IMG/VR virus record: IMGVR_UViG_3300037628_000897
Coordinates: 1 to 46,141 of that record
Length of the DNA: 46,141 nt
From: a virus
Strand: one strand, 5' to 3'
Under the pieces are notes generated by a model, which did no database searches, had not been told where the DNA came from, and was given only the letters and a program-made list of their open reading frames with translations. This document shows positions 1 through 46,141 of the stretch, piece by piece (within the stretch, counting starts at the first letter, position 1; each line of letters starts with the position of its first letter). Both the position numbers and the translations under genes were made by a program.

Positions 1-146
1 ATTATAAGCCCTGTTCTAAATGCATATTATAACCGTAAATATACAGTATTACGGGTATATAAATATAAGCTAGTTTTAGAATTAGGCATATTAAGTAAAC
101 ATATTAAAGAGGTTTCTATATCAGATGTTAGAATGTTGGATTTACA
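1..146. repeat. Terminal direct repeat, left copy (circular overlap)
   Basis: Bases 1-146 match 45996-46141 with a single difference (A at 20, C at 46015). The reading frame of a membrane protein continues exactly across the join. The simplest reading is a circular molecule of about 45,995 unique bases with redundant contig ends. The mismatch changes Asn to Thr and could be an end-of-contig error or a real variant. A true short terminal repeat of a linear virion DNA is less likely because it lies inside a gene. Confidence 0.9.
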
Positions 147-291
147 ACAAAAATTCTGGCAAAGGTTGTTAAATATAGGGAATATAGCTATCGCAACTGC
201 TGGCACTTCTGGTTATGAACTTATTGTTAATGGGCTAAGTGAACCTGGTAATATCATAACTAAAATTAATGACATAAAGCATACGCCATGA
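1..291 (+). CDS. bPH2-type membrane protein, C-terminal part (gene continues from 45831 across the cut)
   Basis: This is the 3' part (96 codons) of a gene that begins at 45831 on the other end of the circle; the joined product is about 151 residues. The segment encodes a YdbS/bPH_2-like fold: a short basic stretch after the membrane helices ([20 protein letters not shown]), then [33 protein letters not shown] and a closing strand-helix ending [11 protein letters not shown]. Such domains sit on the cytoplasmic face of the inner membrane and their ligands are mostly unknown. Its stop overlaps the next start as ATGA (288-291), so translation is probably coupled to the lipoprotein gene. The family call is by pattern recognition only. 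Confidence 0.75.
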
Positions 292-1154
292 TACACATAA
301 AATATATTTTATTAGCTCTTATTGTTCTCATCTTCTCCCTGGCTTGCTCCACCCAAAGCACATCCGATGATATCCCCGCTACTACGACAATCTATCAAGG
401 TCCCCTGGGCAGCCCCTATACCGATCAATACGGCATAGAATTTATCTGGATCAATCCAGGTAGCTTCACCATGGGCGATCCTTCCAGGGAAAACGAAAAA
501 GCGCTTCCTTTGCACGAGGTTATAATATCCAAAGGGTATTACCTTGGTAAATATGAGATTACGCAGGAACAAGCCGGTAATATTGAATATGAATATAATT
601 ACTATCAACAATCTTCCAATGAAGGACCTTCGTATCCCATAGATATGCTTGATGCTAGTGATATTGATTTATTTACAGATAATTCAAATGCATACAACAC
701 CACCCACACCTACCTCTATCGTCTCCCCACAGAGGCCGAATGGGAATACGCCGCCCGGGCCGGGACTGATACCCTTTATTATTGGGGGGATGATCCCGAA
801 GGAATCGATAGCTATGAATGGTATTACGATAACTCCGAAGACTCTACCCATGCCGTGGGCGGCTTGCTTCCCAACCCCTGGGGGCTCCACGATATGCTGG
901 GTAACGTTGGTGAATTTGTTTCCGATCTCTATCGCGGCGTAGATTTTAACGATGGCTATGTCGATACAATAAGGGTATACGGAGATCCCGCAACGGATCC
1001 CTGGTATGGTTTTTCCGGTGGTACTCCCGTCATACGGGGAGGCTCTTATAATAAAGGTTCCGTTTATACCTGCGAATGTTCATACCGTTTTCAGTTCGAT
1101 TACCAGGATTATGTCGGTTTGCGTCTTGTATTGGATGTTTATTCCGAAGACTAA
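288..1154 (+). CDS. FGE/SUMF1-domain lipoprotein (probable lysogenic conversion gene)
   Basis: 288 residues. Residues 1-20 are a lipoprotein signal (hydrophobic [17 protein letters not shown], lipidation Cys20). The remainder is a formylglycine-generating-enzyme/sulfatase-modifying-factor fold: [13 protein letters not shown] (58-70), [13 protein letters not shown] (83-95), [16 protein letters not shown] (144-159), [20 protein letters not shown] (196-215), IRGGSYNKG (249-257) and GLRLVL (277-282). Cys262 and Cys264 lie near the usual active-cysteine segment but with CxC spacing, so enzymatic activity is doubtful; many such domains act as C-type-lectin-like binding modules. The expected site is the periplasmic or outer face of a diderm envelope. 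Its start overlaps the bPH2 stop (ATGA), and a recombinase follows 18 bases later. Confidence 0.85.
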
Positions 1155-1172
1155 ATCACCGATAATAATTAC

Positions 1173-2270
1173 ATGTCCAACAACGAAACCCGACTCGCCA
1201 CCAATATCTGGCAGCGCGGTAACCGTGTAGTTATCCGCTTACGCCTCAATAACGTCTCTATCACCCGGACAATCGGGGATATCGACGAACCGGATATATT
1301 GACCAAAGCCGCAAAGGAAATCGCTTCCCTTCGCAATAATAAATCCCATAATAACTCATATACCATATCCCTGACGCTAAACCAGATTATAATCGAGTAC
1401 TGGAATAATCGTAAGCATATCCAGGGTCTTTCCCTAAATACCCTCAAAAACGAACTGTGTCGCCTTCGCTGGCTTCAGAATTACTGGAGCTCCTACAGAT
1501 TAATCGACATTACACCTGTAAAAATAGAGCAGTCACTTTTAGATTTATATGATGTCAAAAAAATAGGTCATGCCTCGGCAAATCTATATCTATCCACGCT
1601 TTCCAGTATCTTTGAGTTTTGCCAAAGCCGTGGATACGTTGCAAACAATCCTGTTTCCAGCGTGAAACGCTATAAAATTAACAACAACCGCCGGCGATAT
1701 CTTAGCCGGGGGGAATATAAATTACTCCTTTTGGCTTGTTCTAAGGCCGTCAGGGCTTCTGATAAACACAAAAGGCTCTACCGTCAGCTTATGCGGATGA
1801 TTATCCTCACAGTCCACACAGGGCTTCGTAAGGGGGAGATTATTAATGTCAAGGTGCAGGATATCGATTTTGAAGCAAGATATCTTACCCTGACTCATAC
1901 TAAAAGCAACAAGGTTCGTAATATTCCCCTGGCCCCCGCCGCCCTGCAGGCTATCGGCCGGGAACTTTACCCCCGCACCCCGGAGTCCAGGGGTTATCTT
2001 TTTATGAGGCACGGCCGGCCCCTGGGGGATATTCAGCAACGCTGGACGCGCGTTCGCCGCCTGGCGGGCCTAGAGGACCTGCATTGGCATGATTTGCGTC
2101 ATACCTATTGTAGCTGGGCAACCATGGCGGGTGTGGATAGCGCCACCATCCAGGCCGTCCTGGGGCATAGCACACCATCTCTCACCGATCGATACACCCA
2201 TCTTTCTTCCAGTCATATCATGTCTTCGGCGGCTACTCTTTCCAAATGGCTTTCTAATAATAGTCCGTAA
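1173..2270 (+). CDS. Tyrosine recombinase (second, non-att-adjacent)
   Basis: 365 residues. An N-terminal arm/SAM-like core-binding domain spans about 65-165 (LTLNQIIIEYWNN to FEFCQSRGYVANNP). The catalytic domain carries the full set: Arg219 (HTGLRKGE), Lys244 (THTKSNKVRNIPL), His306 and Arg309 (HWHDLRHTY), His332 (LGHSTPSLTDRY) and nucleophile Tyr341. It looks intact and active. It is the last gene of the rightward lysogeny operon, 18 bases after the lipoprotein gene, without an obvious Shine-Dalgarno. No tRNA-like att core is visible beside it; the tRNA-Arg attP sits 26 kb away next to another recombinase. It could resolve dimers, provide a second integration specificity or invert or excise a segment; none of these is shown by the sequence. 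Confidence 0.92.
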   Translation: MSNNETRLATNIWQRGNRVVIRLRLNNVSITRTIGDIDEPDILTKAAKEIASLRNNKSHNNSYTISLTLNQIIIEYWNNRKHIQGLSLNTLKNELCRLRWLQNYWSSYRLIDITPVKIEQSLLDLYDVKKIGHASANLYLSTLSSIFEFCQSRGYVANNPVSSVKRYKINNNRRRYLSRGEYKLLLLACSKAVRASDKHKRLYRQLMRMIILTVHTGLRKGEIINVKVQDIDFEARYLTLTHTKSNKVRNIPLAPAALQAIGRELYPRTPESRGYLFMRHGRPLGDIQQRWTRVRRLAGLEDLHWHDLRHTYCSWATMAGVDSATIQAVLGHSTPSLTDRYTHLSSSHIMSSAATLSKWLSNNSP

Positions 2271-2328
2271 TCCCCACAATAACCGTCATTCCCGCGCCGG
2301 CTGTAATCCATTTTCAATTACCATTGTC

Positions 2329-2418
2329 CGTCATTCCGGCGAAAGCCGGGATCCATCTTAAATTATTATTTGCTTGGATTCTTGAAGTGTATAGATTCCC
2401 GCCTTCTCGGGAATGACG
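2329..2418. repeat. REPIN-like inverted pair, copy A
   Basis: Two REP-type palindromes face each other: the left arm GTCATTCCGGCGAAAGCCGG and the right arm GATTCCCGCC..CGGGAATGAC, each able to fold alone. They are joined by a spacer related to those of copies B and C (TCCATCTTA .. AAGTGTATAGATTCC). Length is about 90 bases. REPINs are normally mobilised in trans by a RAYT transposase of the host; no such gene is seen in this window. Confidence 0.8.
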
Positions 2419-2833
2419 GACATTTTTATTGTCGGCAAAATATGCCTGTTAAGAACGAACTTTCATCTATCGGCTAAGTGCGCGTGGTAGTTATGTTAAT
2501 ACACGCCTTTGGTTTCGTTATTGAGAACGGCTATCAACAAGCCTCTTAAATCTGGCTCTATTATTCTATATAGTATATTGTTTTAAACGGATGCTTCTTT
2601 ATATTCTTCTTTAGTGCCAGCCGGTTATCTGGATATATCGACATATTTCCCATACTTTCGGTGTGTCCAGAGCCTCGAACAAATGTCCTATATACTGGAC
2701 TGTAGTCTTTACATAGATTAATATCCGTTCTCCAATGTATACCGGACCGCTTCCAAACCCCGGAATATTGCGATTTATGAAATATTTTACATTAATTTAT
2801 GAAATGGAGTTTATTTTGGATACTTTGAACCAT

Positions 2834-2874
2834 AAAAAAAGCCTATCCGATCGATTATGGCGATCGGATAGGCT
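2834..2874 (-). terminator. Rho-independent terminator of the late operon
   Basis: Read leftward, a perfect 14-bp stem (2874-2861 pairing with 2853-2840) with a 7-base loop is followed at once by seven T residues (2840-2834). It lies about 170 bases beyond the stop of the last late gene (3041) and faces the rightward operon ending at 2270, so it would stop late transcription before it runs antisense into the recombinase gene. Confidence 0.9.
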
Positions 2875-2952
2875 ACCGATTAGCTTTCACGGCCTTCGGC
2901 TGGCCGGCTTATGTGTCGTTGTCATTCCCGCGGAGGCGGGGTCATTCATAAA

Positions 2953-3033
2953 CGTCATTCCCGCGCAGGCGGGTATCCAGTCTTATTGTTTGGATGGTTA
3001 AGTGTATAGATTCCTGCCTTCGCGGGAATGACG
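2953..3033. repeat. REPIN-like inverted pair, copy B
   Basis: An 81-base element ending 8 bases from the 3' end of the late operon: left palindrome GTCATTCCCGCGCAGGCGGG, spacer with TTATTGTTTGGATG and AAGTGTATAGATTCC, right palindrome CTGCCTTCGCGGGAATGAC. It is clearly homologous to copies A (2329) and C (39745), including the centre, so these are copies of one element rather than chance hairpins. Confidence 0.85.
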
Positions 3034-3040
3034 TACATTA

Positions 3041-5821
3041 TTACGGCGCCGGTAAAAGGTCTTTTAGCTTCTTCGTGCTCTCTTCCGGCACGGTTATTGT
3101 ATATTTATTCCCGTCGATGTTCACTACATATTCCGCGGTTTGGATCAGGTCCAGATAGCTATAACCTTCCGAGTTCGATGCTGTCGAGGGCTGGGATTTA
3201 TAAGAAACGATGCTATCGCCGGATATTGTCGGCTCCGCTGTAATTTTTGCCGACCAGGTCTTTCCTACCTCAGCATTTCCGGAGCCGTCAATGCTCCAGT
3301 TTGTTACCCGGCAAAGATCCGGGGCCGTCGGCGTGCCGGGGTCAAAGGCTTCCATGTATTCCTCCTGATCCGTATCCCCACTTACAACCAAGGTAATGGG
3401 ATTGCCTCCTACTGTCTGGAAACCGGTGCCGCGTAAAAACACATGATAGCTGGCATTATCAAGGTCGACATTAACCGTGCCGGCGGACCCTGTTATTAAC
3501 CTGGCTATTGTTGTAGTCTCGCCGGTGTCCATTACCTGAACATCCACCCCGGCAAGAGTCGCCCCAAACTCGTCATCGATCTTTACGGTTATATTAAAGT
3601 TGTTCGCTCCTCCCCCGGCACCCGGAGAAGACCAGGCGATATTCCCGCGTTCAAGTATAGCCTCTTGCGAATGTAAAGCCGGATTATAAGTTCCGCCGAC
3701 ATCCGAAGGTGCGCTTACGTCTTTTCGTGCCAATGCCCGCAAAAAGCCCAGTATAGTATTATCGCTGGCCCCGGTGAAAGCCCCGATCCGGGCCAGAAGA
3801 TCAGCCAGGGTCTTGCCGCTCGTTCCTGCAGAAACATGTCTGGATAAGGCTTCGTTCCAAGTAGTTTCCGCAATTAAGGCATGTGCAAGCTGTGCGTCCT
3901 GATTGACTGTCACATTGCCGGAGGCTTCATCTATAATATGAAATACTCCGGCGATCACTATGGTGCCGCCATTACAATTAGCATTTATTTTGATAGTTCC
4001 GGCGTTGGAAATAACCAATGTGTCATTGTCTTCCATCTTTTGTATTTCAATATTACCGGACCAATGACGCATTATCGCCCATGCCCCGTTGACTCCGTTA
4101 TAATCCAATATAGGGAATAATCCGCCGCCACAACCACAATAACATTGGTCAAAACGATAATTGTTTATAGCAGCCAATTTCAATGTTGCCCTTAGGGCGC
4201 AGGCATGAAAGTCCCCGTTTTCGGCGGTAACATCATCGATATAACTTCTATCAAATTCAGGTTCGCCGGTGCATATACCGTTTACAATGGCGCCATAAAA
4301 ATAAGAATGATCACAATCTTTGCTGTTTAGATTTAGTACCCAATGTGAATTACCAATCATTTCCCTATGATCGTAATCCGCACTTAAAGTTATGATCGAG
4401 CCGCCTTTTACCTGCATTGTTTTTAATTTGGTAGAAGCCAACAGAGCCATTGCATCAGTGATATTATTCGAAGGCCTTTCAGCAAGGCCATTAAAATTTA
4501 ATACAGTTCCGGTTTCTCCACCCTCTTCTGCTACTGAGTTATACCAAACCGAGGCTAAGGCATAGGCGTTAACTATGGTTGTGACTGTATAACCAACAGT
4601 GAGTTTGTCGATATATATATTAGCATTGGAAAGACCTGAATTTGCATATCTGATTTTTACAATACCCAAATCAGAACCGGAAGTTCCAACATGTGTTGTC
4701 AATAAATCATATGTCTTTTCTATATCAGTAGGTCCACCCTGGCCAGATAATTCTCCTATTTTTTCCCAAGCTCCCTCACCAGTCCAATCATAGGCATAAA
4801 TATTAAGAGTATTTGCCACTGTTGTTAGCCTACCCTTAAACGACAATAAAACCGGCGTTCCAAAAGCCGTAATAGAATAGGGATATTCGATATCTAAAAC
4901 ACCGGCGTCATCCGCTATTTGATGATAAACGCTATTTGTCGTTCGTGTGGCAACATAAGTATTATCTATTTCGGTACCGAAAGTAATTGTTACGCCTGTT
5001 GCAATCTCATTTACAGCGGCCGAACCGGATACTATATTTCCGGCAGTCACCTTGCCATCGCTGTCCACAGCAACCTCTACATTTTCTGGCACGATCGGCC
5101 TTAATAATTTTGAGTTGCCGTATTCACTGTCATTGACTATTGCAAAACTATCCCCGGTCTGGGGGGTCTGTCCGGTTAGTACGTTTACCGTTTCGATGGA
5201 TGAATTGGGCTTATCGTATCCCGTGCCATCATAATCTTTTTCCAGATTTACCGCGGCTGCCGCACCTCCACTTATGGCGGTAACATCGGCCGACACCTGG
5301 TTGGTAACGTCCGTCACAGTCGGTACCGTCGGGTGTGTGCCGTTGGTGTTCGCAAAATCCAGACCAACCGTTCCCCCGGCTTCCACGTCCAGCGTATTGG
5401 CCGGGGTGGTGGCGCGGATCAATTGGGCGTTGCCATAGGTGCCGTCATTCACGATATCGAAAGTATCTTTTTCGACATTGTCGACCAGCTTAATTTCCAA
5501 AGTTTCAGCAAATACCCCCGTAAACCCAATGCAAATTTCTACACTATCGACACCAGCCACAAGGGCGGCATCCGGTACATCCAGACGATATCGCCCTGGA
5601 CATTTAGTTGCGTCTACCTCTTTAAACCCGCCGGATGAATAAACAGAATTTGCAGCGGCAAGCGTGGCGAGCGTTATTGTTGTGGCTACGTCTCCATTTC
5701 TTATATATGAAGCCACAGCGCCAGCGGAATTATAAACTAGACCCGTCTTAGAAGTCCCGTCTGAGGAGTCTCTAAGATGAAAATAAAACTTTTGCGATGT
5801 TGAGCCTTTTTTGATGCTCAT
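3041..5821 (-). CDS. Large fibre-like virion protein
   Basis: 926 residues. The N-terminal domain (about 1-115: KFYFHLRDSSDGTSKTGLVY, AGAVASYIRNG, VDATKCPGRYRLDVPDAALV) resembles a domain that recurs in phage receptor-binding or baseplate-associated proteins. Two related linkers follow (DTFDIVNDGTYGNAQLIRAT and DSFAIVNDSEYGNSKLLRPI), then a beta-rich middle, a carboxypeptidase-regulatory-like beta domain (about 740-825: NITVKIDDEFGATLAGVDVQ) and a C-terminal domain ending KLKDLLPAP. It is the last gene of the late operon, with ATGA overlap to the propeller gene, followed by the terminator at 2834. A host-contact role is inferred from position and composition; no enzymatic motif is seen. Confidence 0.75.
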   Translation of the reverse strand: MSIKKGSTSQKFYFHLRDSSDGTSKTGLVYNSAGAVASYIRNGDVATTITLATLAAANSVYSSGGFKEVDATKCPGRYRLDVPDAALVAGVDSVEICIGFTGVFAETLEIKLVDNVEKDTFDIVNDGTYGNAQLIRATTPANTLDVEAGGTVGLDFANTNGTHPTVPTVTDVTNQVSADVTAISGGAAAAVNLEKDYDGTGYDKPNSSIETVNVLTGQTPQTGDSFAIVNDSEYGNSKLLRPIVPENVEVAVDSDGKVTAGNIVSGSAAVNEIATGVTITFGTEIDNTYVATRTTNSVYHQIADDAGVLDIEYPYSITAFGTPVLLSFKGRLTTVANTLNIYAYDWTGEGAWEKIGELSGQGGPTDIEKTYDLLTTHVGTSGSDLGIVKIRYANSGLSNANIYIDKLTVGYTVTTIVNAYALASVWYNSVAEEGGETGTVLNFNGLAERPSNNITDAMALLASTKLKTMQVKGGSIITLSADYDHREMIGNSHWVLNLNSKDCDHSYFYGAIVNGICTGEPEFDRSYIDDVTAENGDFHACALRATLKLAAINNYRFDQCYCGCGGGLFPILDYNGVNGAWAIMRHWSGNIEIQKMEDNDTLVISNAGTIKINANCNGGTIVIAGVFHIIDEASGNVTVNQDAQLAHALIAETTWNEALSRHVSAGTSGKTLADLLARIGAFTGASDNTILGFLRALARKDVSAPSDVGGTYNPALHSQEAILERGNIAWSSPGAGGGANNFNITVKIDDEFGATLAGVDVQVMDTGETTTIARLITGSAGTVNVDLDNASYHVFLRGTGFQTVGGNPITLVVSGDTDQEEYMEAFDPGTPTAPDLCRVTNWSIDGSGNAEVGKTWSAKITAEPTISGDSIVSYKSQPSTASNSEGYSYLDLIQTAEYVVNIDGNKYTITVPEESTKKLKDLLPAP

Positions 5822-6591
5822 AATCTTGCAATGCCTCCTAAAACGCTATGGCCTATTCCGCCTTTCATATCGCTAAAACGGGGATAAGGAATTAAACCGC
5901 TTATCCCCAATCTGCCGTTCACGTCATCCGTACAAATACCTCGTGGACTAGCATCTACTCCACTAATATCTTCACTGGTTTTCAGTGTTGACGTAAATTG
6001 GCCGGATTGAAGATAAAGCTTAGTATCATTATTGCCACACCAAGGCGTGTTTATTCCATCATAAGATATACCTGTGGGTTGGGTAACTATACCTCCAACA
6101 TACTCACTATCCTTTAACGTTGAGGTAAACTGGCCGGATTGAAGATAAAGCTTATCGTCTGTTAATCCGCACCAGGGGGTGTTGGTGCCATCATAAGACA
6201 TGCCATCTGGAAAAGTATCTATCCCCCCTACATATTCACTTGTTTTTAACGTAGAAGTAAATTGTCCGGATTGAAGATAAAGCTTATCATCATTAGACCC
6301 ACACCAGGGTGTGTTGGTGCCATCCCAAGTAATGTCTTGGATAACTGCATCAATACTATTAATATCTTCGCTGGTTTTCAGTGTTGACGTAAATTGGCCG
6401 GATTGAAGATAAAGCTTATTGCCTATATGACCACACCAAGGCGTGTTTATTCCATCATAAGATATACCTGTAACAGATGCTTCTATACCTCCAACATACT
6501 CACTATCCTTTAACGTTGAGGTAAACTGGCCGGATTGAAGATAAAGCTTATCGTCTGTTAATCCGCACCAGGGGGTCGTTGTAGTAGCCAT
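5818..6591 (-). CDS. Five-repeat beta-propeller-like virion protein
   Basis: 257 residues made almost entirely of five 44-residue repeats, each with PWCG..(D/N)DKLYLQSGQ and FTSTLK(D/T)SE, then a G(I/V)..GISYDG(I/T)NT link to the next. Repeats start near residues 7, 51, 95, 139 and 183; the tail (about 225-257) is unique. The DNA period is exactly 132 bp, and units 1-2 are nearly identical to units 4-5, pointing to recent block duplication. A propeller or solenoid adhesin on the tail is the likeliest role. Its stop overlaps the fibre gene start (ATGA), and a glycosyltransferase lies immediately upstream. Confidence 0.75.
   Translation of the reverse strand: MATTTTPWCGLTDDKLYLQSGQFTSTLKDSEYVGGIEASVTGISYDGINTPWCGHIGNKLYLQSGQFTSTLKTSEDINSIDAVIQDITWDGTNTPWCGSNDDKLYLQSGQFTSTLKTSEYVGGIDTFPDGMSYDGTNTPWCGLTDDKLYLQSGQFTSTLKDSEYVGGIVTQPTGISYDGINTPWCGNNDTKLYLQSGQFTSTLKTSEDISGVDASPRGICTDDVNGRLGISGLIPYPRFSDMKGGIGHSVLGGIARL
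5950..6591. repeat. 132-bp tandem repeat array inside the propeller gene
   Basis: The 21-base segment starting at 6002, 6134, 6266, 6398 and 6530 recurs at exact 132-bp intervals. Units 1 and 4 share one flank type (..GGTTTTCAGTGTTGACGT..) and units 2 and 5 another (..CTATCCTTTAACGTTGAGGT..), giving the order A-B-C-A-B with a 396-bp higher-order period. The third unit is the most divergent. Confidence 0.9.
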
Positions 6592-8732: not shown

Positions 8733-8813
8733 CTCATTCCCGCCCCACCGTCGTCATTCCCGCCGCTTATCGTCATTCCCGCGAAGGCAGGAATCTATAC
8801 ACTTAATAAATCC
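8733..8813. repeat. REP half-units between lysis genes
   Basis: Three fragments of the same palindrome family occur near 8733, 8751 and 8771-8813. The last carries GTCATTCCCGCGAAGGCAGG followed by a reversed piece of the REPIN spacer (AATCTATACACTTAATAAATCC), so it is half of an element in opposite orientation to copies A-C. It occupies the 125-base gap between the M23 and XhlA-like genes. Confidence 0.75.
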
Positions 8814-15128: not shown

Positions 15129-15144
15129 TTTCTCTTTCTTCTAC

Positions 15145-15246
15145 CGTCATTCCGGCGAAAGCCGGGATTCGGCTATTTTCTATAGATTCCCGCCTGCGCG
15201 GGAATGACGTTTATTCCTATAGATTCCCGCCTGCGCGGGAATGACG
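15145..15246. repeat. REP palindrome cluster
   Basis: Three palindromes of the GTCATTCC(C/G)GCG family occur in a row (15145-15168, 15185-15210, 15222-15246). The last two are near-identical tandem units (TATAGATTCCCGCCTGCGCG). They fill the gap between the GT chaperone frame and the tape measure gene. The centre differs from that of REPIN copies A-C. Confidence 0.8.
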
Positions 15247-15248
15247 GT

Positions 15249-15617
15249 TTACTTTTTTACTTTTCCGCCGCTGCGGGGTTTATTTTTATTATCCGGCTTA
15301 TTCTTCTCTTCGTTATAGCGATTTACGGTATCCTCGATTATCATCATCCGGTCAATCAACCTTTCCATTTCCACAGGGCCAAGCTCTTTTTTTAGGCCCA
15401 ACAACTCCAGCCCCCCGGCCCCCAGCAATTTCAATCGCTTGTGGACCGACCAGGCCAGTTCGTTTTCCGGATATAATCGGCCGTATTCCCAATATCCGGA
15501 ATGACATTCATAATCCCTTTTCGGGTTTTCGCAAGTCGGTATAAAATCATCAGGATCTTTATCCGCCAGATTGTAGCAATCTTCACAAGTCGGCTGGCCC
15601 CACAATCCCCAGAGCAC
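15249..15617 (-). CDS. Tail assembly chaperone, T-like frameshift extension
   Basis: 122 residues from a GTG at 15617. The frame is open upstream to the slippery site at 15629-15635, giving LKSA before the GTG codon, so it is best read as the -1 frame extension of the 212-residue chaperone (fusion about 338 residues). It has Cys pairs (CEDCYN, CENPKRDYEC) and a basic tail (NKNKPRSGGKVKK). In lambda-type tails the G and GT products assist tape-measure and tube assembly and are absent from the virion. Independent initiation at the GTG is possible but lies inside the stem-loop. Confidence 0.75.
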   Translation of the reverse strand: MLWGLWGQPTCEDCYNLADKDPDDFIPTCENPKRDYECHSGYWEYGRLYPENELAWSVHKRLKLLGAGGLELLGLKKELGPVEMERLIDRMMIIEDTVNRYNEEKNKPDNKNKPRSGGKVKK

Positions 15618-22784: not shown

Positions 22785-23303
22785 TCACCTTTTATGTACA
22801 GCGGCGCCGGCCTCGAAATCCTTTTGAATCTCGTTTTTACCGTCTCCCGTGACATTTATCTCAGAGAAGTTAAGAGGCTTGGCCTCTGCAACTCTCTTGA
22901 TAAGAACCCCAAAACCATCCAGGATGTTTTGGGATTCACATTCGGCGAATTTCACAACCTGCGATTCGGGATCGGCCAGAGCGGTACCATAAGTCTTGAT
23001 ATCTTCCATCAAGGCCGGTGCAAGACCCTTCATTACACCGCCGACATCGCGCTCTTTCAGGCTTTCGAGCAATTCTCCGAATCTTACAACCCTTTTATTG
23101 CGATCTTCCGTATCCCTTCGCGTGATATCGGTATTGAGCCTATCGAATTCCGCCTGGTCTTCCGGGGTTCTCTCCGGGGGCGCGTCTTTTTTGGCGAATT
23201 CGGCAAACTGCGCAACGATACCAGTCTGGATATCTTTTCCAAGGCCACTCATAGCGGCCTTTATTGAGTCCGCCACTAACTTTTTGATATCATCGTCGTT
23301 CAT
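22785..23303 (-). CDS. Nested scaffold protein from internal start
   Basis: An in-frame ATG at 23303 (residue 199, MNDDDIKKLVADSIKAA) has AGGAGG 8 bases upstream, the best Shine-Dalgarno in the neighbourhood. The 172-residue product is charged and coiled (FAEFAKKDAPPERTPEDQAE, RNKRVVRFGELLESLKERD). Nested scaffolds in the protease gene are established in lambda (C/Nu3) and Mu (I/Z). Confidence 0.65.
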   Translation of the reverse strand: MNDDDIKKLVADSIKAAMSGLGKDIQTGIVAQFAEFAKKDAPPERTPEDQAEFDRLNTDITRRDTEDRNKRVVRFGELLESLKERDVGGVMKGLAPALMEDIKTYGTALADPESQVVKFAECESQNILDGFGVLIKRVAEAKPLNFSEINVTGDGKNEIQKDFEAGAAVHKR

Positions 23304-23897
23304 AGAATCTTCCTCCTGAATTTCTTTATATTCGCTAAAGTTAAGTGTACATACTTCGTCTTTTTCTTCGCAAAAGCTAAGATTAGACGCTTCTTTTTCC
23401 TCTCCTTCACTGAATAGAGAGGAATATATATCCATTGGTGACTGGCCTTTCATCGCAGGCGGTACCATACCTTGAAAAGCGGCCGCTCTTAACATGGGGC
23501 CCTGGCCTTCATAATCCGGTACTATTTCCGCGGACACAGCGGGAAATCCACCGCCTTTATACATCCTATAAAATCCATCCGGGATGTTTTCTATGTCTGT
23601 AAATAGCCCTGTGACTCTTGCCCCCTTATATGTCATATCCCTTGCTCTTGCCTTCTTTATATCGCCGACAGAAGGAACGTCGGTATGCTTTACAAGGGTG
23701 TTTCCATGCCCCGCTTTCATTATCTTTTTGTGAAATAATACGCCGGCTTTCGGTAGGTGTTCAGAGCTGAAACTATTGATGTTATCAGCCATCTTGTTTA
23801 TACCTTCCGGAGTTAATTTAAGTCGCCTTCCACTAATAGAAGTATGGTCCCCGGAGTAGCATATTAAGAGATCATTTATGCCGTGTTTATTTCTCAT
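22785..23897 (-). CDS. Prohead protease with C-terminal scaffold (Mu gpI-like)
   Basis: 370 residues. The N-terminal part (1-165: GINDLLICYSGDHTSISGRR, LTPEGINKMADNINSF, LPKAGVLFHKKIMKAGHGNT, GGGFPAVSAEIVPDYEGQGP) is protease-like and contains His and Ser residues in the expected region; I cannot assign the triad with certainty. Residues 199-370 are charged and helical, as scaffolds are, and begin at an internal ATG with its own ribosome binding site. The 5' leader is a copy of the one before terS. Confidence 0.78.
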   Translation of the reverse strand: MRNKHGINDLLICYSGDHTSISGRRLKLTPEGINKMADNINSFSSEHLPKAGVLFHKKIMKAGHGNTLVKHTDVPSVGDIKKARARDMTYKGARVTGLFTDIENIPDGFYRMYKGGGFPAVSAEIVPDYEGQGPMLRAAAFQGMVPPAMKGQSPMDIYSSLFSEGEEKEASNLSFCEEKDEVCTLNFSEYKEIQEEDSMNDDDIKKLVADSIKAAMSGLGKDIQTGIVAQFAEFAKKDAPPERTPEDQAEFDRLNTDITRRDTEDRNKRVVRFGELLESLKERDVGGVMKGLAPALMEDIKTYGTALADPESQVVKFAECESQNILDGFGVLIKRVAEAKPLNFSEINVTGDGKNEIQKDFEAGAAVHKR

Positions 23898-23940
23898 GTT
23901 TTACTTATCGGAGGGGGTGCACTTTTGGGGTGCATTTTGG
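23895..23940 (-). promoter_or_regulatory. Duplicated leader element, copy 1 (before protease gene)
   Basis: This segment ends in the protease ATG and matches 28169-28214 before terS almost base for base. Read leftward it holds a TGCAC / GTGCA hairpin with loop CCCAAAA, then CCCCCTCCGATAA, then the ATG. There is no purine-rich Shine-Dalgarno; CCTCC resembles the 16S anti-SD instead. Read rightward it shows a direct repeat GGGGTGCA at 13-base spacing. Confidence 0.75.
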
Positions 23941-23951
23941 AGGATATGGTA

Positions 23952-26308: not shown

Positions 26309-27729
26309 TAAAAATTACCTATATATTTTTTATTATCATAATTTTTCCTGCCGCCCATATAGGCAGTAACAACCTCTTTCGTAGCTGATTTAGGCTTATA
26401 TGTTTCTATTTCTGACATATCAACATGCTCTTTCCACTCACTATATATCGCGTAAGTAACAGCATCTATGGCATGGTTGACGGAATTATTGGCTATATCC
26501 TCACAATATTTATTCGATGTACCAGGTATTTTTCTCTTTTTAAGACCCAGAACCTCTTCGCCAAATATCATGCATTGCAGAATATCATAATAAAAAGTAG
26601 GGTATCCCGTATCCGGTCTTATATGGATAAGATTTCTCAGCTTTCCCAGCCTGCCCTGTACGGATCCCTTATCTTTTATTGATGATCTTGCGTCCAGTCC
26701 TGCTTTTACAAAAGCGGCAACCATATTGGGCTCGGCCGCATCTACCCATAATGTCGTATAATTCCATTTATCATGTAATCTTACTGCTTCTGATACCCAC
26801 CATATTTGATCTTTGCCGGGTGTATAAACTATATCTAACAACCAGTAAGTCTTGTCCTTTATTCCAATAACCCCAATGCAACCTGGATCTGTATATCCAA
26901 TATCACAGCCGGCTATAATGTAATCAAAAGACTCAGGGGCCCTTGTTATTCCCAAGACATTATCAGGGCCGAAACCATGTGCTTTTTTAGAGAATTCGGG
27001 AAAGGCTTTTCCTAAAGATTCTACCCTTTTGCCATCCAGATATTTTAATTGTTCGTTTTCATCATAAGTTAGACGTAAATTGGGCTCATAATTATCAGGT
27101 AAATTTTCTTTATTATCTTTGGTTTGGGAAAAATAGGCTTTGAAATACGGGTTATCTTTTTGTAGATCGAATAATTTAGCAACCTGGGAATCTTCTTCGG
27201 GGTTCGTGGGATATAGAAGACACCTAAAAGGTATACCTGGCTGTCTTAGCCGGCCCAAAAGCATATTATTAACCGATTGGGTGATATTAGAGGCCTCTTC
27301 TACCAGTATCGCTCCATATTGAGGACCTTTTACTTTTGGCGCCTCGGCCAATTGCCTGAATCGTATTTCAGAACCGTTTTTCAAATAGATATTTTGGGGA
27401 TGTGATTTTTTGTAAGTCTCGATGGTTTCCGGCGGTAATATTTCTAAGATCTGAGGTATTACGAGATCCTGTACAACAGGGTAGGTTGCAGCTCCAGCCA
27501 ATCCCAGATTACCCGGAAAGGCAAAAAGCAACAATATAAAGACATAGGCACAGATAAAACTTTTACCCGATCCCAGGCCACCTTCACATAATATATATTG
27601 AACCATATCGGCAACGCGGGCATCCCCTGAGTTTTTAATACACTGAAAAATAAAATGCAGCATATTTATTTGCCACTTTACATTCAGCTTTATAGGAAGG
27701 ACATCGATATCTAATTTATTATCAATCAT
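26308..27729 (-). CDS. terL: Terminase large subunit
   Basis: 473 residues from the ATG at 27729, chosen because it overlaps the terS stop (AATGATTGA); a longer start at 27762 would overlap terS by 41 bases. ATPase: Walker A GGLGSGKS (50-57), Walker B YGAILVEEA. Nuclease: AGCDIGYTDPG, LWVDAAEPNMV and NHAIDAVTYAIYS supply the acidic metal ligands. It packages DNA through the portal encoded next. Confidence 0.93.
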   Translation of the reverse strand: MIDNKLDIDVLPIKLNVKWQINMLHFIFQCIKNSGDARVADMVQYILCEGGLGSGKSFICAYVFILLLFAFPGNLGLAGAATYPVVQDLVIPQILEILPPETIETYKKSHPQNIYLKNGSEIRFRQLAEAPKVKGPQYGAILVEEASNITQSVNNMLLGRLRQPGIPFRCLLYPTNPEEDSQVAKLFDLQKDNPYFKAYFSQTKDNKENLPDNYEPNLRLTYDENEQLKYLDGKRVESLGKAFPEFSKKAHGFGPDNVLGITRAPESFDYIIAGCDIGYTDPGCIGVIGIKDKTYWLLDIVYTPGKDQIWWVSEAVRLHDKWNYTTLWVDAAEPNMVAAFVKAGLDARSSIKDKGSVQGRLGKLRNLIHIRPDTGYPTFYYDILQCMIFGEEVLGLKKRKIPGTSNKYCEDIANNSVNHAIDAVTYAIYSEWKEHVDMSEIETYKPKSATKEVVTAYMGGRKNYDNKKYIGNF

Positions 27730-28171
27730 TAGCTTTTGCTTTTTTCGCGACTGCCTGTTCAAGGCTTTCGAAATTGATATTGATCACTGTCGGCTTTTTA
27801 TCTTCTTCCCCGGTAGCCAACAAATCTTTCATAAGCCATTCGGGCGCTCTTTTTCTTGTCACTGTTTTTATGTCGTGTTTTGTTCCGATCTTATCCAGAG
27901 CTTGGGAGTCTACTATTTCCGTAACCGAGCCGTCATCGGATAGCAACTCATCACGGATATGATTCACTCGGTTTATCAATGACTCCCGTTTATTCTGGCG
28001 CCAATAAGCCCGGGCTTTTTTTACCAGTTTCGCAAATTCAGGCTTATTTTTTAACCATTTTGACCAGGTTGATTTTGTAACACCGGCAGCTTTTATGCCT
28101 TCTTTTGTATCGCCGGTGTTCTCCAACACAATACGGACGTCGTACAGAGTTTCGGTATTATATTTCGACAT
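27722..28171 (-). CDS. Terminase small subunit
   Basis: 149 residues. N-terminal helix-turn-helix (TKEGIKAAGVTKSTWSKWLK, about 22-41), a helical middle (KKARAYWRQNKRESLINRVN) and a C-terminal tail (VININFESLEQAVAKKAKAN) likely to contact TerL. It is the first gene of the late operon. Its leader duplicates the element before the protease gene. Confidence 0.82.
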   Translation of the reverse strand: MSKYNTETLYDVRIVLENTGDTKEGIKAAGVTKSTWSKWLKNKPEFAKLVKKARAYWRQNKRESLINRVNHIRDELLSDDGSVTEIVDSQALDKIGTKHDIKTVTRKRAPEWLMKDLLATGEEDKKPTVININFESLEQAVAKKAKAND

Positions 28172-28214
28172 GTTCTATTTATCGGAGGGGGTGCACTTTT
28201 GGGGTGCATTATTG
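28169..28214 (-). promoter_or_regulatory. Duplicated leader element, copy 2 (before terS)
   Basis: Same element as 23895-23940: start codon, CTCCGATAA-type spacer, C-rich run and a TGCAC/GTGCA hairpin, with three or four differences over about 46 bases. Its outer edge overlaps the stop codon of the 28209-28571 gene. Confidence 0.75.
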
Positions 28215-28571
28215 GGGATTGTTTCGCAAAGTTGGGGCAATAGCCTTTACTCTAATGAGTTCAGCGAGTGAATATAGATTTACTCCTTTTTCATTTTTTT
28301 TCATTTTAATATTGTATCTTTCTCTTAAATGTCTTAGCTGTCTTTCAGTTCTTATTCCTAAATATTCTATGGCTTCTTCTTTGTTTAAATCTTCCTTTTC
28401 CTCTATTTTGTTTTGTATTTTTAATTTCACTTCCCATACATTCAAGGCCTCGCGTCCCTTTTCTATCAACTCATTGTATTTATAAGTTGTGAATCCATCT
28501 CGTAATCTTAAATCAAGATATTCCAATAATATATTAGAATCCACCAAGCCGATTAATACTTCAGCAGCCAT
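28209..28571 (-). CDS. HTH protein beside attP and terS (possible packaging or recombination accessory)
   Basis: 120 residues. The N-terminal part is helical and acidic. Residues about 60-110 look like a winged-helix/MerR-type DNA-binding domain: EDLNKEEAIEYLGIRTERQL, RHLRERYNIKMKKNEKGVNL, YSLAELIRVKA. It lies between terS and attP, so either a recombination directionality factor or a terminase-associated DNA binder fits; the sequence does not decide. Confidence 0.65.
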   Translation of the reverse strand: MAAEVLIGLVDSNILLEYLDLRLRDGFTTYKYNELIEKGREALNVWEVKLKIQNKIEEKEDLNKEEAIEYLGIRTERQLRHLRERYNIKMKKNEKGVNLYSLAELIRVKAIAPTLRNNPQ

Positions 28572-28651: not shown

Positions 28652-28759
28652 AGAGTTATCCCACTTCCCCCCTATTTCTCCTTATTACTTTATTCTATAT
28701 CTTTATATTTCTGCTACTTACCTATTTCCCCGTATATTCCCATATACTGTTTTATATTT

Positions 28760-28802
28760 CCTAAACCGGAGGTCGGAGGTTCGAATCCTCTCGGGCGTAC
28801 CA
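28760..28802 (+). other. attP core: 3' half of tRNA-Arg (CCU)
   Basis: The segment runs from the anticodon CCT (28760-28762, preceded by T33) through the anticodon stem 3' arm, variable loop AGGTC, T arm GGAGG-TTCGAAT-CCTCT (775-791), acceptor 3' strand CGGGCGT, discriminator A and CCA (28800-28802). No 5' half of the tRNA is present, as expected for an attP that restores a host tRNA-Arg gene on integration. The integrase stop is 15 bases away. Confidence 0.88.
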
Positions 28803-28816
28803 ATTGTATCAGGTAG

Positions 28817-29905
28817 TTATGCTATTTTTGACTTTCCTTTTTCTGGCTTGCTGTGCAGTAATTGTGCTGTTGGGACGTTGTTCATTTTGTTGTCGAGGTG
28901 ATTTAGGGCGTGCACCTTGTGGCTGGGGGCCAGGTGGGCATAGCGTAGGGTCATGGATACTGATTTATGGCCTAATATCTCTTTTGCTGTTGTTAGATCG
29001 ACCCCGCTCATTATCAGTTGTGAGGCGAAGGTGTGCCGGATATCGTGAAAACGGAAGTCACATATCCCGGCTTTTATCAATGCGGTACGGAACGATTTTT
29101 TTACATCTTTGTAACGGCGGCCGTACTTATCTGCAAAGACGTAAGGGCTTTGTTTGTTTTTTTGTAGCTCTTTTAGGGTGACAAGCAAGGTTTTGTTGAT
29201 TGGTATTTCGCGACGATCGCCGTTTTTTGTTACCTCGAGGAGTATAAAACCGTGGTGTAGATCGATATTTTTGTACCATCGTAGCGATAGTATCTCTTCT
29301 TTTCGCATCCCTGTGTTGAGGGCGGTTATCACTATGGGTTTTAAATGAGGCGAGCAGGCTTTTATTAGGGTTCTGCATTCTTCGAAAGATAGATATCTTA
29401 GTCGTGTGTTTTCTTCGGGCAATAATTTAGCTTTACGAACCCGCCGAAGGACTTCGCCGTCCGTCATATCCCAGTCGACCGCTTTGGTGAACATGTGTTT
29501 TAGCACGGCTATATATCTGTTATTTGTTGCGGGTGCCTTTTTTTCATTTATAAGTTTTGTTTGATATCTTTCTACTATCAGAGTGTTGAATTGATTCAGT
29601 GGCAAATCCCGGAAATGCTCGAACAACTTATTTACAATACGAACCTTGGTATAATAATTTTTCTGGCGCTCTATCCATTCGGCATATTGATCTTTTAGCT
29701 CTTCGAAGGTGTTGCTCTTTGCACGCATCATCAACAGGGGATCTTTGCCCTCAAGGACGGCCTGGCGGCGCTGGGTGAGTATATTTATCGCCTCGCGGTG
29801 TTTCGTGCCGTCCCCAGTTGATTCTCGGCGTAGAATGCCATCAGGTCCATTATATCGTATCCACCAGATATTACCGCGTTTATAGACGCCTCTTATTTTC
29901 GGCAT
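28817..29905 (-). CDS. int: Phage integrase (tyrosine recombinase) at attP
   Basis: 362 residues. A short AP2-like N-terminus (RGVYKRGNIWWIRYNGPDG), a core-binding domain (about 65-155) and a catalytic domain with Arg201 (NTGMRKEEI), Lys227 (VTKNGDRREI), His287 and Arg290 (HDIRHTFAS), His313 (LGHKSVSMTLRY) and nucleophile Tyr322. All residues are present. Its 3' end abuts the tRNA-Arg attP core, so this is the site-specific integrase of the element. A second intact recombinase lies at 1173-2270. The first codons of int are duplicated at 30123-30146. Confidence 0.95.
   Translation of the reverse strand: MPKIRGVYKRGNIWWIRYNGPDGILRRESTGDGTKHREAINILTQRRQAVLEGKDPLLMMRAKSNTFEELKDQYAEWIERQKNYYTKVRIVNKLFEHFRDLPLNQFNTLIVERYQTKLINEKKAPATNNRYIAVLKHMFTKAVDWDMTDGEVLRRVRKAKLLPEENTRLRYLSFEECRTLIKACSPHLKPIVITALNTGMRKEEILSLRWYKNIDLHHGFILLEVTKNGDRREIPINKTLLVTLKELQKNKQSPYVFADKYGRRYKDVKKSFRTALIKAGICDFRFHDIRHTFASQLIMSGVDLTTAKEILGHKSVSMTLRYAHLAPSHKVHALNHLDNKMNNVPTAQLLHSKPEKGKSKIA
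28852..28870. repeat. Putative integrase arm-type repeat, right
   Basis: TGTGCAGTAATTGTGCTGT, 18 of 19 bases identical to 28633-28651. It lies within the last codons of the integrase gene, so part of the likeness could be fortuitous. Confidence 0.4.
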
Positions 29906-30968: not shown

Positions 30969-31262
30969 TTATTTTTTACCTATTCCCGCAGGCAATGGAT
31001 TCAATGCGGGATAGGTTTGTTTATCCAGCATTGAATCTATATCGCTTTTTCTGTATCTTATGGAATTGCCAACTTTTACAAAAGGGATTTTACGGTTTTG
31101 TTTTGCGTCATATACCCAATCCCGTGATACTTTCAGATATGCCGCCAGTTCATCGGCGTTAAACAATACGACGCTTTCTGTGCTCTTTGGCATGGCCTTT
31201 ACTATGCGGTCGACTACCCTATCCGCAAGCTCTTTTATAAATTCTTCGTCGAATATTGACAT
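30969..31262 (-). CDS. Excisionase-family helix-turn-helix protein
   Basis: 97 residues. The region ELAAYLKVSRDWVYDAKQNR, KIPFVKVGNSIRYRKSDIDS is the helix_turn_helix_17/excisionase signature (recognition helix, wing, then RYRKSDID). Such proteins act as recombination directionality factors or early regulators. Two intact integrases are present, so it could serve either. Confidence 0.82.
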   Translation of the reverse strand: MSIFDEEFIKELADRVVDRIVKAMPKSTESVVLFNADELAAYLKVSRDWVYDAKQNRKIPFVKVGNSIRYRKSDIDSMLDKQTYPALNPLPAGIGKK

Positions 31263-39556: not shown

Positions 39557-39857
39557 AATCTTTTCCCTTTGTATTGAATGTTCTTTCCAATCTTCAACGC
39601 TGAGCCCGAACCATTACCCGGCCGGGGGTTGCCTTTTGCTCGTCAGCGGCGCCTAACACAGCGATCGTTGATAAACTCCATAATTAAGGATCCATTATCA
39701 CATCCACTATTTCGTTGCTCAGGCTCAGCCCTGAATATTGGAAATACTTCCCGCGCAGGCGGGAATCCATTATTTGTTTAGATGCTTTAAGTGTATAGAT
39801 TCCTGCCTTCGCGGGAATGACGCACTATAATTAATTCAGTATTACCCTGGAGTGGTG
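39557..39857. other. Structured intergenic segment with imperfect long inverted repeat and REPIN
   Basis: No gene is seen. Two 23-base arms, 39583-39605 and 39721-39743, are inverted copies of each other at 20 of 23 positions, enclosing about 115 bases that include a CCGGCCGG palindrome and TGATAA/TTATCA. REPIN copy C follows directly (39745-39821). Confidence 0.6.
39745..39821. repeat. REPIN-like inverted pair, copy C
   Basis: CTTCCCGCGCAGGCGGGAAT, a spacer with TCCATTATTTGTTTAGATG and AAGTGTATAGATTCC, then CTGCCTTCGCGGGAATGAC. Homologous throughout to copies A and B; the first bases of the left arm are trimmed at the junction with the inverted-repeat element. Confidence 0.85.
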
Positions 39858-44296: not shown

Positions 44297-44419
44297 TTAT
44301 CCTCGAAGCTTTTTTCTTTTCTTATTCGAGTGAATACGGCAATAACAATTATGACAAATAGTTTTACGATAAAGTAGCATTCCGCAGATCCGACATAAAG
44401 TGAGAGTATTCTTTAGCAT
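44297..44419 (-). CDS. 40-residue zinc-ribbon-like peptide, first early gene
   Basis: Below the usual size cut: MLKNTLTLCRICGMLLYRKT then ICHNCYCRIHSNKKRKKLRG. Two CxxC pairs make a small zinc knuckle with a basic tail. AGGAGTG lies 8 bases before the ATG. It is the first gene after the leftward promoter at 44507-44535. Confidence 0.6.
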   Translation of the reverse strand: MLKNTLTLCRICGMLLYRKTICHNCYCRIHSNKKRKKLRG

Positions 44420-44506
44420 GGGCAAGCACTCCTTTGGAATGGACCCGGCCCCCCTGGATGGTCAAGAGGACCGGGCTTTCTTTGGATGGATTTTATCTAT
44501 AAATAA

Positions 44507-44535
44507 AAAATAGTGTCTACAACTACATTTGTCAA
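44507..44535 (-). promoter_or_regulatory. Leftward early promoter
   Basis: Read leftward: TTGACA (44535-44530), 17-base spacer, TATTTT (44512-44507). It faces the early genes and starts 16 bases upstream of the repressor ATG, so repressor and early transcription diverge here. The 12-mer TTATCTATAAAT (44493-44504) lies at the expected start of transcription. Confidence 0.72.
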
Positions 44536-44550
44536 GTAAAAAATCATCTT

Positions 44551-44988
44551 ATGAAAGAATTTAATTCAAATATTTTTGTCAGTAGGTTGAAAACCCTACT
44601 AAACAATGATTCTCGACCCAAAGGTGAGTTTTATAAAACCGTAGCGGCTTCAGGTATTGTATTTAATTGGAATAAACGGGGATCAGCTCCCCAAGCGGAT
44701 AAACTGCTGGCTATAGCTCAGTATTTCAATGTCACTGTCGATTACCTTGTCGGCCTGAGCGATGATCCCGGGCCACATAAACCCAAGGTTACCTACCCGA
44801 TACCTCAAAGAAATGACGAACTACGATTCGAATCGCCGCCGGATAAACAATATGGCATATCTAATCCGGAAGTATCAGAGGCCATATGTCAGGTCAAGCG
44901 CATCTTTAATAGGCGGGGATCTCGAGATATTGACAAATTAAAGCTATTTCTTTCCGCCCTGGACCCCGGTGATGATGTAAATGAATAA
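44551..44988 (+). CDS. XRE-family repressor (CI-like)
   Basis: 145 residues. HTH domain about 8-72: FVSRLKTLLNNDSRPKGEFY, TVAASGIVFNWNKRGSAPQA, DKLLAIAQYFNVTVDYLVGL, the usual XRE pattern. The C-terminal part (78-145) lacks a LexA/CI-type Ser-Lys protease, so induction would not be by self-cleavage. It diverges from the early operon and is followed by the radC cassette. No clear Shine-Dalgarno precedes its ATG. Confidence 0.85.
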   Translation: MKEFNSNIFVSRLKTLLNNDSRPKGEFYKTVAASGIVFNWNKRGSAPQADKLLAIAQYFNVTVDYLVGLSDDPGPHKPKVTYPIPQRNDELRFESPPDKQYGISNPEVSEAICQVKRIFNRRGSRDIDKLKLFLSALDPGDDVNE

Positions 44989-45007
44989 AAAATTATGTAA
45001 TTATAAC

Positions 45008-45035
45008 TTGAAACGCTTTTCCCTTGATCTATAAT
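45008..45035 (+). promoter_or_regulatory. Promoter of the radC lysogeny cassette
   Basis: TTGAAA (45008-45013), 16 bases, TATAAT (45030-45035), a near-consensus sigma70 promoter 20 bases after the repressor stop and 39 before the radC GTG. It would give the cassette its own transcription in the prophage. Confidence 0.72.
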
Positions 45036-45073
45036 ATAGTCTTTTAGACATATTGTAGTATTTGGAGTATGGC

Positions 45074-45829
45074 GTGATAAATAAAAAAAATGACAAAGTT
45101 AAGAATCGTGTATATAATCTTAAAAGAGGCAATGGCACCGATTTCATAGAAGAACCGGCCCTTCGCCATTGGCCGGCCCAGGAAAAGCCCAGGGACAGGC
45201 TCCTGGATAAAGGGGAAGACAGCCTGGCGCCGTCCGAGCTTTTGGCTATTCTCTTTCGCACGGGTATTAAAGGTAAAAATGTCGTAAGCTTTTCGCGGGA
45301 AATACTTATCAATTTCGGCAGCATCCGCGGCCTTTTTGATGCTTCAAATGAGGAGCTTTTGGAAATAAGGGGCATTGGCAGGGCCAAGCTTACTACAATA
45401 AGAGCGGCCCTGGCCTTTGGCCGTTTATATGCCGAAGAGATTATAAGGGAGTCCACCCCCCTGATCGACCCGGAAATGGTATACAGCCTCCTCCTTCATC
45501 CCCTAAGGGATAAAAAAGAGGAGGAAATCTGGCTTCTGGCCCTGGACGGCGGGAACCGCTATAAAAACAAGGTGGTTCTTAATAAGGGTGGCTATGGCAA
45601 TGTTGCAATTTGGGCGGGCAATGTTATCAAAAAGGCTCACTCCATGGATGCGGCCGCTATCATACTGGCCCACAACCATCCAAATGGAAAGGCCGCTCCC
45701 ACCCCGGCGGACAGGATAGCTACTACTAAGCTCCGGGATATCTGCGATAGCCTTGGTATTCACCTCCAGGATAATATTATTGTAGGCATGAATGGTTATT
45801 TTAGTTTTAAGGAACAAGGATTAATTTAG
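45074..45829 (+). CDS. radC: RadC-family JAB/MPN protein
   Basis: 251 residues from GTG 45074 (GGAG 8 bases upstream); a TTG at 45062 is the alternative. The N-terminal helix-hairpin-helix includes LAPSELLAILFRTGIKGKNV and IRGIGRAKLTTIRAALAFGR. The JAB/MPN+ domain has EEIWLLALDGGNRY and ILAHNHPNGKAAPTPADR (His200, His202, Asp213), so the metal site is complete. RadC proteins are frequent on mobile elements; the reaction in bacteria is unresolved and the old DNA-repair role is doubtful. Here it heads the cassette radC, bPH2, FGE-like lipoprotein, recombinase. Confidence 0.92.
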   Translation: MINKKNDKVKNRVYNLKRGNGTDFIEEPALRHWPAQEKPRDRLLDKGEDSLAPSELLAILFRTGIKGKNVVSFSREILINFGSIRGLFDASNEELLEIRGIGRAKLTTIRAALAFGRLYAEEIIRESTPLIDPEMVYSLLLHPLRDKKEEEIWLLALDGGNRYKNKVVLNKGGYGNVAIWAGNVIKKAHSMDAAAIILAHNHPNGKAAPTPADRIATTKLRDICDSLGIHLQDNIIVGMNGYFSFKEQGLI

Positions 45830-45830
45830 T

Positions 45831-46141
45831 ATGAACGATATAATATTAGAAGCCCGACCTTCTTGGTGGAATTATATTTCAGATATCATTACTACTTGGA
45901 TTATTGCTATTATATTGTTAATGCTGGCTTTAGCTTTTGTCTTACCAGAATCACAGGAATACAGCATTATCGTATTTACTTCTTTATTTATAATTATTAT
46001 AAGCCCTGTTCTAACTGCATATTATAACCGTAAATATACAGTATTACGGGTATATAAATATAAGCTAGTTTTAGAATTAGGCATATTAAGTAAACATATT
46101 AAAGAGGTTTCTATATCAGATGTTAGAATGTTGGATTTACA
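45831..46141 (+). CDS. bPH2-type membrane protein, N-terminal part (runs off the window, completed at 1-291)
   Basis: The ATG lies 1 base after the radC stop, so the two genes are co-transcribed and probably translationally coupled. Residues 1-17 are a short cytoplasmic lead. Two hydrophobic helices follow (about 18-35, IITTWIIAIILLMLALAFV, and about 42-58, YSIIVFTSLFIIIISPVLTA). The PH-like domain then continues at window base 1. Small two-helix plus bPH2 proteins of about 150 residues are a common bacterial architecture of unsettled function. In this phage it is part of the rightward lysogeny operon, so a surface-conversion or superinfection role is possible but unproven. Confidence 0.75.
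   Translation, partial: MNDIILEARPSWWNYISDIITTWIIAIILLMLALAFVLPESQEYSIIVFTSLFIIIISPVLTAYYNRKYTVLRVYKYKLVLELGILSKHIKEVSISDVRMLDL
45996..46141. repeat. Terminal direct repeat, right copy (circular overlap)
   Basis: Second copy of the 146-base overlap described at 1-146. It lies inside the bPH2-type gene that starts at 45831 and ends at 291 across the junction. Confidence 0.9.

Follow-up and report, generated by a model that had tools for sequence, protein, structure and literature searches.

Four genes lie directly behind the cI-like immunity repressor of what is, judged by its sequence, a temperate siphophage: radC; bPH2, which encodes a bPH_2-domain protein; a gene for a probable lipoprotein of the FGE/C-type-lectin fold (the ‘FGE gene’); and int2, which encodes a tyrosine recombinase. 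We think the chances about even that they constitute moron-type cargo, that is, cargo of the lysogenic-conversion kind. The phage is IMG/VR virus record IMGVR_UViG_3300037628_000897, the whole of which (46,141 nt) was analysed and is termed ‘the window’ here. Its first 146 positions repeat its last 146 (45996-46141) with only one mismatch, at position 20, and because of this near-identity we take the genome to be a circle of 45,995 bp. The bPH2 gene crosses the join, and its frame remains open with either copy of the overlap; the mismatch, which specifies N62 or T62 in bPH2, is possibly a polymorphism of the sampled population. Structural genes are present for portal, terminase large subunit, minor head, major head, tape measure, minor tail protein and head protease, a set that identifies a tailed temperate phage; taken as a whole, the sequence is that of a circular one.

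Read through the join, the order on the plus strand is cI, promoter, radC, bPH2, FGE gene, int2 (Table 1). The minus strand holds nearly every other gene of the record. The cI-like protein resembles the Phage_CI_repr (2.7e-3) and RstR (5e-4) profiles, in both cases under the cut-off. The first-pass annotation placed the four genes correctly, with a 1-base gap between radC and bPH2 and an ATGA overlap between bPH2 and the FGE gene, and Pfam supports each of them; a further 18 bp separate the FGE gene from int2. It also gave the block a near-consensus promoter of its own, separate from the repressor. The promoter itself is plausible, and better than chance for its gap: sites of at least 11/12 arise there in about 0.25% of Markov shuffles (P about 0.0025), and the whole window contains only three on both strands. 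Its separateness is another matter, for the interval between cI and radC yielded no terminator-like site, and read-through from cI is therefore possible. We infer that the cargo is expressed in lysogens, as we do the surface location and function proposed below; transcription would probably start at this promoter, and perhaps also reach the cargo from cI.

Table 1. Features of the block, of the join and of the int1 region, in window coordinates
Feature	Position	Strand	Remarks
cI-like HTH repressor	44551-44988	+	Weak profile matches and position; directly upstream of cargo
Sigma-70-like promoter	45008-45035	+	TTGAAA-N16-TATAAT, 11/12; inside the 85-nt cI-radC gap
radC	45074-45829	+	GTG start; UPF0758_N (HhH) and JAB domain
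bPH2, first part	45831-46141	+	Two TM helices, start of PH domain; resumes at 147-291 on the circle
bPH2, last part	1-291	+	Includes the second end-overlap copy (1-146)
FGE/C-type-lectin-fold protein	288-1154	+	Signal sequence; probable relaxed lipobox, C20
int2, XerA-like tyrosine recombinase, complete	1173-2270	+	R219, H306xxR309, H332, Y341
Probable attP	28758-28802	+	tRNA-Arg(CCU), anticodon loop to CCA end; TTCCTAAACCGGAGGTCGGAGGTTCGAATCCTCTCGGGCGTACCA
int1, recombinase, complete	28817-29905	-	Outside cargo; tRNA-Arg 3' half adjoining
Excisionase-family protein	30969-31262	-	Upstream of int1; TIGR01764, 37.3 bits (cut-off 28.8)

The repressor and int2 stand in the order cI … int on one strand, as is common in phages, and int2 has intact catalytic residues and matches Phage_integrase at 2.6e-30 (Pfam). 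The block might then be an ordinary lysogeny module, in which int2 is the lysogeny integrase and the other three genes, lying between cI and int, are cargo. We consider this rather improbable, because it is int1 that has an attP-like tRNA-Arg sequence at its end and an excisionase gene nearby, because the same layout occurs in an Erwinia and a Proteus phage, and because there was no sign beside int2 of a tRNA fragment or of another candidate att site. The 3' half of the tRNA-Arg(CCU) lies fourteen bases past the 3' end of int1. Rfam scores it as a 5'-truncated tRNA (25.6 bits, E 8e-4), and it is 82% identical to what is annotated in actinophage RP3 as the ‘core of attP’. Erwinia phage vB_EhrS_59 and Proteus phage vB_BPM-V3 each have a similar stretch, with the same orientation, just past the integrase gene. 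Two Rfam matches, one to mir-205 and one, on the minus strand over the tRNA half, to HPnc0260, fell below the gathering score and were dismissed. From these sequence features, int1 is probably the lysogeny integrase of the phage, acting at a tRNA-Arg(CCU) gene. The recombinase of the block, int2, earlier listed as an integrase within a lysogeny cassette, probably does not have that role; from the layout, we regard int2 as an accessory recombinase. The correction matters for annotating the integration site of this phage.

Do the four genes belong together? Their tight spacing and single promoter, and the lack of a convincing PADLOC match between the block and any known system, would suit one dedicated, co-adapted system, as yet unnamed, that serves superinfection exclusion or defence, for example. 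In the loci searched, the order radC-bPH2-FGE showed no conserved linkage. None of the best 80 viral radC loci has bPH2, and one has an FGE domain, ~7 kb from radC; bPH2, FGE and int2 are absent from 43 genomic radC loci within the fetched flanks (up to 10 kb); and among 79 viral FGE loci none has radC or bPH2 and one has an integrase match, the searches reaching close or pattern-sharing relatives, on contigs many of which are short. The base composition of the genes is also uneven. The bPH2 gene is 30.0% GC (z = -3.5 against the phage backbone), whereas radC, the FGE gene and int2 all fall within one SD. The absence of conserved linkage in these loci and the composition of bPH2 leave a single system without support, and we think it distinctly unlikely.

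An outlier among neighbours that are not outliers fits a patchwork, rather than arrival in one piece, and this bears on a further possibility: that the four genes form a small mobile island, and that int2, its own recombinase, imported radC, bPH2 and the FGE gene. Two circumstances are in keeping with an island—int2, with which the block ends, is intact, and the phage apparently has another integrase with an attP-like site of its own—but no direct repeat of at least 10 bp links 44400-45090 with 1100-3060, radC and int2 do not share the composition of bPH2, and no island of this kind turned up near the 43 genomic radC relatives. We judge an island unlikely. If the genes are moron-type cargo, as we prefer, they would have been assembled piecemeal, from different origins, and would not form one machine. 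The adjacency of cI, the opposed strand, the plausible promoter and the types of protein encoded all fit the earlier proposal of cargo for the lysogen; what finds no support is a single system. No phage relatives with the same or an alternative cargo set were found, and cargo swapping at this site is thus not visible.

The first gene, radC, is preceded by a Shine-Dalgarno sequence, GGAG, six bases upstream of its GTG. Its product was first described as a ‘nuclear-type’ JAB protein. This is a misnomer: it is an ordinary, full-length bacterial RadC, scoring 186.5 with NCBIfam NF000642 (cut-off 180), 87.5 bits with PF20582 (UPF0758_N) and 102.9 bits with PF04002 (RadC; 1.4e-29). The JAMM residues HxH...D are intact (H200, H202 and D213; HNHPNGKAAPTPAD at 200-213). 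In these residues and in its full domain order the protein is like the RadC/UPF0758 proteins of prophages and islands; it differs in standing behind a phage repressor, and none of the well-covered relatives found exceeds about 38% identity to it. RadC domains in phages and mobile elements are thought to function in nucleic-acid or nucleotide processing (PMC5512222), and the protein here probably serves the phage as an accessory in nucleic-acid processing.

The second gene product matches PF03703 (bPH_2) with 35.2 bits (cut-off 22; 1.5e-8), and its hydropathy indicates two hydrophobic helices followed by the bPH_2 domain. YdbS/YdbT-like bPH_2 proteins have this same arrangement, two TM helices and then the domain; in contrast to them, the protein here is a single short one, in a phage. 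Its matches are weak and generic, and occur in plasmids and in 5/247 Spirochaetota genomes. At the sensitivity used, there were none in phages or viral contigs. A weak PADLOC match to HamB (2e-3) was taken as chance. A published report links bPH_2 proteins to bacteriocin transport (PMC8657885).

The third product contains an FGE-sulfatase domain (PF03781; 112 bits, 4.3e-32) and begins with a hydrophobic signal followed by C20, in a non-canonical lipobox, S-L-A-C; with this N-terminus, it is a probable lipoprotein, and its gene comes after cI and radC-bPH2. The active-site cysteine pair of FGE is found in a C-terminal GGSY-x-C...C segment. In the protein here, going by the motif as generally known rather than by an alignment, the pair appears to be absent, which makes formylglycine-generating activity unlikely. 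The protein has in common with FGE and PvdO the fold (TM 0.6-0.7) and the FGE-sulfatase domain, and departs from them in apparently lacking the cysteine pair and in possessing an N-terminal, lipoprotein-like signal. Among solved structures its best match in sequence is TvpA of Treponema denticola (2y3c; E 2e-13). Its AlphaFold2 model (mean pLDDT 75.8) fits PvdO, TvpA and human FGE to much the same degree, with a TM of 0.60-0.62 for human FGE.

TvpA-type proteins of Treponema are variable lipoproteins of the FGE/C-type-lectin fold, predicted to be at the surface (PMC4891356), and the protein here resembles them in its FGE domain, signal sequence and predicted fold. It is possible, then, that it serves the bacterium rather than competition between phages, as a conversion adhesin or ligand-binder like treponemal TvpA. 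We allow this a small chance, though one of some weight. The sequence match to TvpA speaks for it; set against this, PvdO and FGE equal TvpA as matches to the fold, and neither of the elements of a diversity-generating arrangement is present. The RVT_1 profile (PF00078) has zero matches in the whole record, so no reverse transcriptase was found, and no 60-nt stretch of the FGE gene has a near-repeat in the window that could be a template, the best having 23 mismatches. These results give no support to the FGE gene having come from a DGR. The gene differs from those of the TvpA type in these respects, and in being phage-borne and near a repressor. A separate observation concerns the ‘Spirochaetes bacterium’ isolate Th196P1bin3, the 3.5-Mb genome of which has 108 matches to the FGE protein, a large paralogous expansion.

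As moron-type cargo, the block would act on the host mainly through two likely effectors: the bPH_2 protein, with its two TM helices in the inner membrane, and the FGE-fold lipoprotein, the fold of which is like that of TvpA and similar putative ligand-binding surface lipoproteins. An altered lysogen surface would be the likeliest effect. Superinfection exclusion heads the candidates for it, a guess drawn from an analogy in position and topology. The model for it is Ltp of Streptococcus thermophilus phage TP-J34, a lipoprotein of the lysogeny module that is expressed from the prophage and excludes other phages (PMC3952083). Like the FGE gene, the gene for Ltp lies in a lysogeny region, near the repressor; unlike Ltp, the protein here has an FGE/C-type lectin domain, its part in exclusion is a proposal by analogy, and RadC and bPH2 have no known counterpart in TP-J34. 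That the bPH_2 protein and the lipoprotein jointly form a new superinfection-exclusion pair, the first on an FGE/C-type-lectin scaffold, we consider a long shot. Genes of the FGE type are usually discussed as enzymes or as DGR targets, and here one that encodes a probable lipoprotein occurs near a repressor, in a phage for which the collections searched gave no close relative. Should the protein alter phage adsorption or entry, the FGE/lectin scaffold would join the known exclusion lipoproteins.

Single-protein scans of viral_contigs with RadC, terminase and bPH2 returned zero relatives, and those with int2 and the FGE protein returned relatives of low identity only. A spirochaete host was considered because the RadC scan and the FGE matches were rich in spirochaetes; it is disfavoured, since none of 393 Spirochaetota genomes contained the tRNA-Arg half when up to 3 mismatches were allowed. 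The half was also missing, with up to 2 mismatches allowed, from 120 sampled Pseudomonadota genomes, and it had no exact match in viral_contigs. A 33-base version of a dRS3-like motif that recurs in the phage was searched for in genome_contigs, again with the host in mind, and was not found.

This motif, an inverted repeat (ATTCCYGCCTTCGCGGGAATGACG), has seven copies between genes at up to 3 mismatches, where 0 are expected. The sites are 2316-2421, 2940-3036, 8758-8813, 15144-15259 and 39730-39825, and in three places the copies resemble a paired, MITE-like unit. Adjoining the tail genes, positions 5818-6591 encode a protein composed of five 132-bp repeats (LYLQSGQFTSTLK...), the family of which is not clear. 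Finally, a 51-bp repeat, 90% identical between its copies at 23895-23945 and 28169-28219, lies at the start codons of two minus-strand genes: the head protease gene (22785-23897) and the gene at 27722-28171.
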